Assembly (NCBI GenBank): GCA_019232665.1
Contig: JAFANN010000002.1
Location: 1-39,413, forward strand
DNA length: 39,413 nt
From: Caulobacteraceae bacterium
Lineage (GTDB): Bacteria; Pseudomonadota; Alphaproteobacteria; Caulobacterales; Caulobacteraceae
Direction of reading: 5' to 3'
Numbering within the stretch: position 1 is the stretch's first letter; each line of letters opens with the position of its first letter. The position numbers and the translations under genes were made by a program. The notes beneath the pieces are model-generated. The model made no database searches. It was not told the origin of the DNA and saw only the letters and a program-made list of their open reading frames with translations. This document shows, in pieces, positions 33,788 through 38,020 of this stretch.

Positions 33788-35005
33788 ATGTCCGGGAACG
33801 ACCTCAGCCACGCAGCCCCACGGCGGGTCCTGCTGATCGTCGGCGGGGGAATCGCGGCCTACAAATCTCTGGAGCTGGTCCGACTGCTGCGTAAGGCGGA
33901 CGTGGCGGTCACACCCGTCCTGACCAAAGCCGCTGAGCGGTTCGTCACATCGCTCAGCCTCTCCGCCCTGGCCGAGAGCGAGGTCCGCACTGAGCTCTTC
34001 TCTCTCGCCGACGAGGCGAAGATGGGTCACATCGAGCTCTCACGCTCGGCGGACCTGGTGGTGGTGGCGCCCGCGACGGCGGATCTGATGGCCAAGGCCG
34101 CCAATGGCCTGGCCGACGATCTCGCGTCGACCGTCCTGCTCGCCACCGACAAACCGGTGTTTATGGCGCCGGCGATGAACGTGCGGATGTGGCTGCACCC
34201 GGCGACGCAGCGTAACCTCGCGACCCTCGCGGTCGATGGCGTGCGGATCGTAGGCCCCGACGAAGGATCGATGGCTTGTGGCGAGTTCGGTCCTGGCCGT
34301 ATGGCCGAGCCACCAGTGATCGCTCAGGCGATCTTCGAGGCCCTGAAGCCGGCCCCCCGTCCGCTCGCAGGCCGCCACGTGCTTATCACCGCCGGCCCGA
34401 CCGCTGAGCCGATCGATCCCGTGCGGGTGATCACCAACCGTTCGAGCGGCAAGCAGGGCTACGCCATCGCCGGAGCCCTGGCCGGGCTGGGGGCGCGTGT
34501 GACCCTTGTTTCTGGGCCTACCTCCCTGCCACCGCCGCCTGGAGTTGCGCGGGTGGATGTGGAGACAGCCCTGCAGATGAAAGCGGCGTGCGACGCGGCC
34601 CTGCCGGCCGACGTGGCGGTTTGCGTCGCGGCGGTGGCCGACTGGCGTCCGGACCATGCGTTCAAGCTGAAGCTCAAGAAAGGACCAGGCGCCCCGCCCT
34701 CTGTGGCCCTGGTGGAGAATCCTGACATCCTCGCAGGCCTTTCAGCCAAGGGACCGCAGCGCCCCCGCCTCGTGGTCGGTTTCGCGGCCGAGACCAACGA
34801 CCTGGAGGCGAACGCGCGGAGCAAGCTCGAGCGCAAGGGCTGCGACTGGATCGTGGCAAACGATGTGAGCGGAGAGGGGATCATGGGCGGCGACCAGAAC
34901 GAGGTGCTGCTGGTCACGCGCGAGGGGACCGAGCGGTGGGCGCGCGCAGCCAAGACGGGCATCGCCGCGCGGCTGGCCGAGCGGATCGCGGCGGCGCTCG
35001 CCTGA
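33788..35005 (+). CDS. coaBC: Bifunctional phosphopantothenoylcysteine decarboxylase/synthase
   Basis: CoaBC (Dfp) makes 4'-phosphopantetheine from 4'-phosphopantothenate, cysteine and CTP, two steps of coenzyme A synthesis. The 405-residue product has the flavin-dependent CoaC half with His81 ([13 protein letters not shown]), APAMNVRMW and Cys164 ([12 protein letters not shown]), then the CoaB half with [25 protein letters not shown], the LKLKK motif and the C-terminal [20 protein letters not shown]. The stop overlaps the dut start by one base. Confidence 0.97.
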
Positions 35006-35457
35006 TGGTGGAGATCGCGATCCGCCGGCTGGCCCATGCCGAGGGCCTGCCGCTTCCCGCCTATGAGACGGCGGGCGCGGCCGCCATGGACCTGCGGGCG
35101 GCGGTGGAGGGGGATTCGCCCTTCACCCTGTCGCCTGGCGCGCGCGCGGCCATTCCAACGGGATTCTGCATCGCCCTGCCGGAAGGCTACGAGGCGCAGG
35201 TGCGGCCAAGGTCGGGCCTGGCGCTCAAGAGCGGGATCACCTGCCTGAACAGCCCGGGGACTGTCGACGCGGACTACCGCGGCGAGATCAAGGTGATCCT
35301 CGCCAACCTCGGGACCGAGCCCTTCCACATCCGCCGGGGCGACCGCATCGCCCAGATGGTGGTCGCCCCCGTCACCCACGCCAGCTGGCGCGAAATGGAG
35401 ACGCTGGACCCTACCGCGCGCGGGGAAGGCGGCTTCGGATCGACCGGCGCCGCCTAG
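35005..35457 (+). CDS. dut: dUTP diphosphatase
   Basis: Dut hydrolyses dUTP to dUMP, keeping uracil out of DNA and supplying thymidylate synthesis. The 150-residue product has all five trimeric dUTPase motifs: [38 protein letters not shown] and [12 protein letters not shown] 35005 overlaps the coaBC stop (TGATG), so the track start at 34936 is not needed. The coaBC-dut pairing is common. It converges with dapB, four bases away. Confidence 0.97.
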
Positions 35458-35461
35458 TACC

Positions 35462-36244
35462 TCAAAGCCCCAGAACTTCGCGCATGCCGTAGAGACCCGC
35501 TGGTTTGCCGTGGACCCACAGGGCGGCGGTGAGAGCGCCGCGGGCGAAGAGGGCCCGATCGCGGGCGGAATGAGAGAGGGTGATCGTCTCTTCCTCGCCG
35601 GCGAAAAGGACGGCGTGCTCGCCGACGATTCCGCCGCCCCGGAGCGAGGCGAAACCGACACCGCCGCGCGGCCGCGCCCCAGTGACGCCGGAGCGGGCAG
35701 CCAGGGCGTGCGCGTCCAGCGTCTCGCCGCGTCCGTGCGTGGCGGCCTCGCCAAGCAGGAGCGCCGTGCCGGAGGGCGCGTCGATCTTTCGCCGGTGATG
35801 GGCCTCGAAGATTTCGATGTCCCAGTCAGCGGCGGGAAGCCGCCTTGCCGCCTCCTCCACCAGGGCGGCCAACAGGTTCACCCCAAGAGAGAAGTTGCCT
35901 GCGCGCACGATGGCGATCTGTTTGGCGGCCTGGCGCACCTGTGCGTCCTCGGCGGGCGTGAAACCCGTAGCGCCGATGACGAGGGCCGGTCCACCGTGCC
36001 CGGCCGCCGCCGCGGCGAGGGCGGCGCTGGCCGAGGCGGTGCTGAAATCGACGATCACGTCGCAGGCGGCGGCCGCCGCGGGGAAGTCGGCCAGGGGCAT
36101 TTCGTGCGCGGCGTCATCCGCGGCTCCGGGACGGTCAAGCCGCGCGGCGAGGCGGACGTCGTCGCGGCCGGCGACGAGCGTCTCGACCGCACGACCCATC
36201 CGCCCGAGCGCCCCCGCCACGCCGATCCGTATCGCCTCAGTCAT
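35462..36244 (-). CDS. dapB: 4-hydroxy-tetrahydrodipicolinate reductase
   Basis: DapB is the NAD(P)H-dependent reductase of the diaminopimelate/lysine pathway. The 260-residue product has the dinucleotide-binding GVAGALGRMGR, VIVDFSTA, the IGATGF loop and the active-site signature EAHHRRKIDAPSGTAL (His149, His150, Lys153). The track start (36334) reads into repeat 1 of the flanking intergenic region; ATG 36244, directly before the Rossmann motif, is the real start. It is the last chromosomal gene before the phage genes. Confidence 0.96.
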   Translation of the reverse strand: MTEAIRIGVAGALGRMGRAVETLVAGRDDVRLAARLDRPGAADDAAHEMPLADFPAAAAACDVIVDFSTASASAALAAAAAGHGGPALVIGATGFTPAEDAQVRQAAKQIAIVRAGNFSLGVNLLAALVEEAARRLPAADWDIEIFEAHHRRKIDAPSGTALLLGEAATHGRGETLDAHALAARSGVTGARPRGGVGFASLRGGGIVGEHAVLFAGEEETITLSHSARDRALFARGALTAALWVHGKPAGLYGMREVLGL

Positions 36245-36291
36245 CGCGCGCCCCTTTTGTGGTGGGCGAGGCATACGACGCCAAGCAGAGG

Positions 36292-36330
36292 CTTGACAGC
36301 CGGTCGAGATAATGTTGCAATATGAAAACT
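36292..36330 (+). repeat. 39-bp direct repeat 1 at the chromosome/phage boundary
   Basis: This copy runs from CTTGACAGCC to TGAAAACT. It contains a perfect TTGACA, a 17-base spacer and TGCAAT, so it reads like a plus-strand promoter. The -10 part overlaps the near-palindrome AT-g-TTGCAA-t-AT. It matches repeat 2 at 36 of 39 positions. Confidence 0.75.
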
Positions 36331-36482
36331 CCAAACATGTGCATGCGCCGCGGGCGGCTTCAACGCCCAGGCAATGGAGTCACTCACCAAATTTCCTTCA
36401 ATGAGCGGCCGGTCAAAGCGGCCGCGGCCGCATGTTCGGCGGAGTGGGGTGACGGAAGCTGGCGGCCGCCGCGAAAGTCGGC

Positions 36483-36521
36483 CTTGACGGCCGGCCGAGA
36501 TCATGTTGCAATATGAAAACT
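36483..36521 (+). repeat. 39-bp direct repeat 2, directly before the terminase gene
   Basis: This second copy starts 191 bases after the first and has TTGACG in place of TTGACA; the last 20 bases (ATGTTGCAATATGAAAACT part) are unchanged. It ends nine bases before the terminase GTG, so a promoter here would give a very short leader. The 285-base gap 36245-36529 holds these repeats and nothing else I can name. Confidence 0.75.
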
Positions 36522-36529
36522 GACGAGGT

Positions 36530-38020
36530 GTGGGTTTGGCGGCTCCGACGAACCCCGCCCCAACTCAGAAGCGCTCCGGCGGCGGATCAGAGACTGATGC
36601 GCTCGAAGACGCGGACCCCCCGGCGGCTTGGGAGCCCCAACCTGGCCCGCAGAGCGCGTTTGTCGCTTCGACGCTGTTCGAGGTGATCTATGGCGGGGCT
36701 CGTGGCGGTGGAAAGACCGACGCGGCGCTGGGCGAATTCGCGAGGCACGCCGAGGCTCATGGCAAGGCGGCCAAGGGTCTGCTGGTGCGGCGCACACGGG
36801 TGGCTCTCGTCCCGACTATCGAGCGGGCGCGGGAGATCTACGGCGCCATGGGCGCCACCTGGCAGGAGCAGAAGTCGCGCTTTGTCTGGCCGAACGGCGC
36901 CATGCTTTATGTACGCTACCTCGACCGGGACCAGGACGCCGACGCCTACCAGGGCCACGACTACACGCGGGTCTATGTCGAAGAGTTGACGCAATTTGCA
37001 AGTCCGCGGCCGATCGACAAGCTCAAGGCGACCCTACGCAGCGCCGCTGGCGCGCCCTGCGCATTCCGCGCAACGTGCAATCCAGGCGGACCGGGTCATG
37101 CGTGGGTAAAAGCCCGCTATATCGATGCGGGCCCCTACAACATTATCGAGGAGAACGGCCTATCCCGCGTCTTCATTCCGGCTCGGCTGAGCGACAATCC
37201 GCGGCTGAGCGAAGCTGACCCACTCTATGTCGAGCGTCTGCGCCAGTCCGGCTCCGCCGAACTGGTCCGCGCGTGGCTGGAAGGCGACTGGAATGTCATC
37301 GAGGGCAGCTTTTTCGACAAATGGAGTGGGCGCAATGTCGTGCGTCCCTTTGCCGTGCCCGAGCTTTGGACCCGGGTGCGCTCGCTGGACTGGGGCTATG
37401 CAGCTCCTTTCAGCGTCGGCTGGTGGGCGGTGGCCTCTGATGACACCACCGCCGATAGCGACGTTGGCCCCCTGGTCATTCCACGCGGGGCGCTGGTGCG
37501 CTACCGCGAGTGGTACGGCTCGACCGGACGGCCCAACCAGGGCCTGAGGCTGGAGGCCGAGGCGGTCGCCAACGGCATCGTCGAGCGCGAGCGCGGCGAG
37601 AAGATCCACAATGCGGTGGCTGACCCCGCCATCTTCAGCACGCAGGGTGGCCCCTCCATCGGCGAACGGCTGCGCGTGGCGGGCGTCTGGTTCAGACCCG
37701 CGGACAACACGCGCGTCGGCAAGGCCGGCGCCCTGTCGGGGTGGGATCAGATGCGGGCGCGGATCGCGGGCCAGGGGAAGGGACCGATGCTATTTGTCTT
37801 CGATACCTGCCGCGACTTCATCCGCACCGTGCCGGTGCTGCAGCACGACCCGGACCGGCCAGAGGACCTCGACACCACGGCCGAGGACCACGTCGCTGAT
37901 GAGGCGCGCTATGCGTGCCTCTCGCGACCGCTGACCGCTGGGCCGCCAGTCGTCCCGTCCAATCCGCGCGACCTGTGGGGACGGGCCGCTAAGCCGCCGG
38001 TCAACTGGAAGGTCGCCTGA
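36530..38020 (+). CDS. Phage terminase large subunit
   Basis: The terminase large subunit drives phage DNA into the prohead with its ATPase and cuts it with its nuclease. The 496-residue product has Walker A GGARGGGKT (55-63), a Walker B-like strand RVYVEELTQF with Glu-Glu where Asp-Glu is usual, and the coupling motif TCNPGGPGH. The RNase H-like nuclease follows with acidic residues in SLDWGYAAP (Asp287), AVADPAIF (Asp365) and TTAEDHVADEARYA (Asp453, Asp457). All parts are intact. GTG 36530 follows GACGAGG; a Pro/Ser-rich stretch of about 40 residues precedes the ATPase. Confidence 0.93.
   Translation: MGLAAPTNPAPTQKRSGGGSETDALEDADPPAAWEPQPGPQSAFVASTLFEVIYGGARGGGKTDAALGEFARHAEAHGKAAKGLLVRRTRVALVPTIERAREIYGAMGATWQEQKSRFVWPNGAMLYVRYLDRDQDADAYQGHDYTRVYVEELTQFASPRPIDKLKATLRSAAGAPCAFRATCNPGGPGHAWVKARYIDAGPYNIIEENGLSRVFIPARLSDNPRLSEADPLYVERLRQSGSAELVRAWLEGDWNVIEGSFFDKWSGRNVVRPFAVPELWTRVRSLDWGYAAPFSVGWWAVASDDTTADSDVGPLVIPRGALVRYREWYGSTGRPNQGLRLEAEAVANGIVERERGEKIHNAVADPAIFSTQGGPSIGERLRVAGVWFRPADNTRVGKAGALSGWDQMRARIAGQGKGPMLFVFDTCRDFIRTVPVLQHDPDRPEDLDTTAEDHVADEARYACLSRPLTAGPPVVPSNPRDLWGRAAKPPVNWKVA

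Follow-up and report, generated by a model that had tools for sequence, protein, structure and literature searches.

Two nearly identical sequences of 39 bp lie between the chromosomal gene dapB and the gene for the large terminase subunit (terL) in the DNA of a Caulobacteraceae bacterium, which raises the question of what they do at this boundary between host and phage-type genes. The window, i.e., the whole stretch of 39,413 nucleotides that was analysed, ends with its contig within a P22-like portal gene, and no integrase was found between dapB and terL (Table 1). Judging from comparative sequence data, the repeats are likely to be an on/off switch placed before the capsid and packaging genes of a Caulobacteraceae phage family, with the same operator also present at scattered phage-type genes and at the likely host repressor gene.

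Table 1. Coordinates of the repeat pair and the neighbouring genes in the window
Feature	Position	Strand	Description
Putative operator-promoter, distal 39-bp copy	36292..36330	+	TTGACA, CCGG box, dyad TTGCAATATGAAA; aligned with 26 further sites
Putative operator-promoter, proximal 39-bp copy	36483..36521	+	Immediately 5′ of terL
Putative operator dyads, TTGCA-ATA-TGaAA	36315..36327 (distal), 36506..36518 (proximal)	+	Identical in both copies
Unconserved spacer, no conserved gene	36331..36482	+	One weak match among compared loci
terL, large terminase subunit	36530..38020, start codon uncertain	+	Terminase_6N, PF03237; phrog_979 and phrog_2
P22-like portal gene, cut by contig end	38023..39413	+	PF16510, 6e-77; contig of 39413 bases
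dapB, chromosomal neighbour	35462..36244	-	PF01113, PF05173; relatives' dapB loci without dyad

The first-pass annotation had described two direct repeats between dapB and the terminase gene, each with TTGAC(A/G), a 17-nt spacer, and TGCAAT, and both descriptions were confirmed. The copies are identical at 36 of 39 bases (92%) and start 191 bp apart. After positions 35000–37800 had been shuffled 60 times with dinucleotides preserved, the highest number of identical bases in any ungapped 39-mer match was on average 26 and at most 28, versus the 36 observed. The dyad that had been drawn as AT-n-TTGCAA-n-AT had to be corrected, because the palindrome conserved across relatives is TTGCA-N3-TGCAA, a 13-bp element with an A+T middle that is centred a few bases downstream. 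The element reads TTGCAATATGAAA in both copies in the window and differs at one arm base, i.e., matches nine of the ten arm bases of this consensus; two dyad matches were observed in the window, versus 0.16 expected. Throughout the host's own genome (3.83 Mb, 375 contigs), no further copy of the repeat was found at up to three mismatches, and the pattern TTGACN{17,20}TTGCANNATG did not occur beyond the window pair. A genome-wide set of full 39-mers in this host was ruled out, as the core had no other copy. Scanning the window for Rfam families and tRNAs gave no matches.

The repeat is not restricted to this genome. Ten related genomes of the Caulobacteraceae carry an extended unit, CTTGAC-N2-CCGG-N9-TG-TTGCAATATG(c/a)AAACT, 5′ of either the P22-like portal gene or terL, and the alignment of 27 sites from 20 contigs yielded the consensus ggCTTGACg.CCGGcCgagaataTGTTGCAATATGcAAacTg, in which the presence of TTGAC at all sites follows from its use as a selection requirement. 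Individual copies of TTGAC-N2-CCGG-N9-TG-TTGCAATATG differ at some bases. The terL upstream regions of same-genus relatives carry the TTGAC box followed by the dyad at a fixed distance, and the unit lies upstream of the portal gene in eight of the nine portal-bearing genomes; in the host's own genome, it instead precedes the adjacent terL. When 2.9 million viral contigs were searched for exact occurrences of this core, nine contigs were retrieved, all with the site 96–372 bp upstream of the portal gene (eight) or terL (one) of the same family. Paired units were also found at five other loci, where they are 122 bp (L351), 178 bp (L354), 185 bp (L370), 176 bp (genome G009), and 255 bp (genome G004) apart, compared with 191 bp in the window. 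When the window stretch was compared with all collected loci, the alignment was limited to units of approximately 40 bp. These results support the earlier proposal of a paired, co-regulated promoter and operator module before the packaging genes, given that the unit recurs, often paired, 5′ of the relatives' terL and portal genes and forms an island of conservation within unconserved DNA. The outcome that had been named as refuting it, a repeat unique to this site with both copies already upstream of dapB in prophage-free relatives, was not obtained: the repeat occurs elsewhere, and the dapB regions of the relatives carry no copies. The suggestion that the module drives something short between the copies fared less well: the intervening 152 bp gave one weak match, and its 64-amino-acid ORF matched no Pfam family.

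The first-pass annotation had also considered a duplication at integration, in which case the pair would be a recent local copy without function, as the 92% identity might lead one to expect. However, the distal copy is closest to the distal promoter of locus L070, whereas the proximal copy is similar to the proximal promoter at locus L162 of G004, TTGCAATATGAAAACTGACGA, and in both cases the flanking sequence continues likewise, which argues against a fresh local duplication. Furthermore, the unit is retained in about 20 contigs whose intervening DNA is unconserved, and single and paired copies recur in unrelated contexts away from dapB, which already refutes such a duplication and makes it extremely improbable. 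It is also very unlikely that the repeats are packaging sites (pac/cos-like or bound by TerS) instead of promoters. Although the sites occur at the starts of terS, terL, and portal genes, often with a TerS-like gene nearby, the unit is present in multiple copies at different gene junctions, where it invariably points the same way as the genes and has TTGAC at a fixed distance, and the dyads also occur far from packaging genes, at the promoter of an XRE-family gene described below.

A sigma-70-type promoter consists of −35 and −10 hexamers separated by 16–18 bp. No sigma-70 site was reported by the promoter scan of the repeats, and TGCAAT is a weak −10; a better −10, CAATAT, is available in the class with the CCGG box, at a spacing of 19 bp. 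This 19-bp distance, together with the CCGG box, suggests that the structural promoters may also need an activator. In G004 (L162), and probably in L338 too, an ATG inside the repeat looks like the start codon of terL. If terL starts at that ATG, transcription would have to begin there or further upstream, which appears not to fit TGCAAT as the −10, so a tension remains on this point. In the window, an ATG within the proximal repeat (36513) opens a frame of 57 amino acids (36513–36686) in a different phase from terL, in contrast to the corresponding ATG in G004, which is in phase; a frameshift or an altered terL start is possible in the window.

The dyad is not limited to the structural genes. 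The exact palindrome occurred 83 times in 16 same-genus genomes (0–19 per genome), versus eight times for the reversed control pattern, and among 60 family-wide genomes it was sparser outside the genus, where its middle was more often G+C. The genes beside the dyads included nine TerS-like genes, two portal genes, a 13-member unknown family of 200–270-amino-acid proteins, and an unknown family of approximately 110 amino acids. The two TerS-like genes tested matched phrog_11494 and phrog_51, and some dyad loci had no nearby phage cluster. The spacing TTGAC-N15-dyad was common outside the structural class, and N17 with a CCGG box was found within it.

Several of these dispersed loci have features of their own. 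The 200–270-amino-acid family is multi-copy, with no Pfam match for the two members tested, and its TTGAC often directly abuts the dyad (CTTGACTTGCATATTGCAA). Its loci are L205, L207, L208, L209, and L212–L214 in genome G015, as well as L216, L226, L241, L243, L245, L246, L249, and L260, and several copies lie at contig ends, as if recently amplified. A gene of approximately 110 amino acids near the XRE gene has pairs of dyads 34–35 bp apart, and a dyad pair 34 bp apart was also present in another genus (G081:C483). In the host's own genome, an orphan TerS-like gene (L314, 1797–2190; G000:C178) has a perfect dyad across its start region.

The candidate for a protein acting at the dyad is a small XRE protein (HTH_31, HTH_3), which adjoins dyads in genomes G006, G001, and G010. 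The protein is 104–158 amino acids long, contains only the helix–turn–helix, and was identified in 13 of the 16 genomes, with a single match in each except G014, which has two, and in a largely conserved chromosomal setting. All 12 loci examined had a dyad with at most one mismatch in the 320 bp preceding the XRE gene, and in eight it lies at −82 to −84; the background in those loci was 0.1 dyads per kb. In some of these loci (within L276–L287), operator-like sites occur near −82, −48, and −14 relative to the XRE start, approximately 34 bp apart. The dyad shows two features of an operator of an XRE (Cro/C1) protein, namely its presence in the regulator's own promoter and its conservation at several targets.

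The XRE gene was not found in the host's own assembly (G000). Nevertheless, contig C235 (15,843 bases; right end of L313) stops inside the divergent gene that flanks the XRE gene, and contig C279 (left end of L315) starts 66 bases ahead of the dyad that belongs to the gene on the other side of the XRE gene; by synteny, the host's XRE gene is placed in the assembly gap between these contigs. The divergent gene, which shares a control region with the XRE gene, matched DUF6456 weakly in six of 11 members (best E value, 0.054), and DUF6456 is the annotation of GafA homologues (PMC9638019). As no protein in the 16 genus genomes exceeded the curated DUF6456 cut-off, at which the control, Caulobacter vibrioides, was positive, a GafY-like identity of the divergent gene is a lead only, and the weak matches did not support the possibility that it encodes a true DUF6456/GafA protein. 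PDB profile searches with the XRE protein and its divergent partner returned nothing useful.

The observed sequence conservation, fixed spacing, orientation, and target-gene context, together with the presence of the dyad in the promoter of the XRE gene itself, are what we would expect if the repeats were tandem operator-promoters of a phage-derived terL/portal/scaffold/capsid gene set, repressed at the dyad by the chromosomal XRE protein, and we consider this reading probable. Each unit would comprise a −35-like TTGAC box, a CCGG box within the spacer, and the 13-bp dyad TTGCA-N3-TGCAA over the −10 and start region. The small Cro/C1-type repressor, supplied from its conserved chromosomal locus, is predicted to bind the dyad and occlude the start region, and would thereby keep terL and the portal gene off. 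Once repression is lost, the packaging and capsid genes would be turned on, perhaps with the help of an activator for which the CCGG box is the target. The two tandem units might tighten the control or permit looping.

A different controller is conceivable, in that the repeats may be ordinary prophage late promoters under a phage-encoded repressor or activator, with the chromosomal XRE protein being merely a motif-sharing relative or a captured phage repressor. Mobile temperate members of the family do exist, since a tyrosine integrase gene precedes terL and the portal gene in two related viral contigs, L339 and L341, and the divergence of the portal does not follow that of DapB (rho 0.13, nine genomes), as expected for mobile phages. 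However, the dyad also occurs at loci without a phage cluster and at the XRE locus in conserved synteny, and neither the window nor most relatives have a repressor gene next to the promoter; we therefore regard phage-encoded control as rather unlikely. The evidence on domestication is divided. We can propose, although only tentatively and as an improbable case, that the genus keeps its own domesticated system resembling a gene transfer agent, composed of a P22-like capsid and portal cluster and separate TerS and TerL genes dispersed over the chromosome that are tied together only by the 13-bp operator and one chromosomal XRE protein with a divergent GafY-like partner, the repeats in the window being two of its switches. 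The portal is single-copy in nine of 16 genomes, terL is under purifying selection (median dN/dS about 0.25) and lies apart from the portal gene in most genomes, the candidate regulator is chromosomal, and terL is located beside a class I lysyl-tRNA synthetase gene in G002, G009, G011, and G015 (family checked in two), all of which favour domestication. On the other hand, L339 and L341 carry integrases, a close relative with 95% portal identity has a 22-kb virion gene cluster, and vertical inheritance of the portal was not supported by the DapB comparison. Because the evidence for domestication stands on both sides, we confine our claim to an operator-promoter of phage-derived genes.

The predicted arrangement of an XRE repressor at tandem dyads has several known counterparts. 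The lambda-type Cro/C1 operators of temperate phages are palindromic, overlap promoters, and are used in multiples. The sites described here are likewise palindromic, lie over putative promoters, and occur in multiples, approximately 34 bp apart in some XRE promoters, but they are spread over numerous dispersed loci, and the gene for the candidate repressor lies on the chromosome, unlinked to the structural genes. Another counterpart is the RogA–GafYZ circuit, which controls the gene transfer agent of Caulobacter crescentus (PMC9632790, PMC11150451). Its HTH repressor is encoded on the chromosome, outside the cluster of phage-derived structural genes that it silences, and also represses an activator gene; here, the divergent gene with the weak DUF6456 match shares the control region of the XRE gene. 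The two systems differ in that RogA has an S24-like domain, whereas the XRE protein here is HTH only, and in that the structural genes here are of the P22-like portal and Phage_capsid_3 type. Repression of gafYZ by RogA involves GGAA-N4-TTCC repeats in a promoter region (PMC9632790); this site was absent from positions 36245–36530 of the window and from the 12 XRE promoters. The XRE proteins RtrA, RtrB, CdxA, and CdxB and TgrL of phage phiCbK also repress gafYZ (PMC10688885). Like the present candidate, they are small members of the XRE family; encoded by Caulobacter and its phage, they act on promoters as repressors of the activators of phage-like genes. However, TgrL is only about 31–35% identical to the XRE protein here over 55–78 residues and has a different recognition-helix region. 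The dyad might coincide with the motif of the Rtr proteins. The best annotated relative of terL was that of Pseudanabaena phage Pam5 (ON014757; 49.6% identity over 92%), in which terL is near the record start but the host belongs to a different phylum. Our literature search found nothing on orphan terminases or domesticated prophages in the Caulobacteraceae.

The repeats yield an operator that can be used in searches, as well as a candidate repressor, for a set of phage-derived genes for which, to our knowledge, no regulator has been described, in a family in which one gene transfer agent has already been studied well. Should the XRE protein be the switch, the deletion of one small gene ought to reveal whether the scattered genes produce particles and which DNA these contain.

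In several relatives, the malic enzyme gene is the divergent neighbour upstream of dapB; in the host's own genome, it lies beside a Trm112-like gene on another contig (L186, 1–360; G000:C212), apart from dapB, and the dapB region is therefore rearranged or split in this genome. For the same reason, a prophage inserted exactly between dapB and the malic enzyme gene was not supported. The terL copies adjoining the lysyl-tRNA synthetase gene (L151, 14708–16162, G015:C100; also L158, L159, and L160) have no portal gene alongside, and the portal frame of G003 (L156, G003:C142) is broken by one in-frame TGA.
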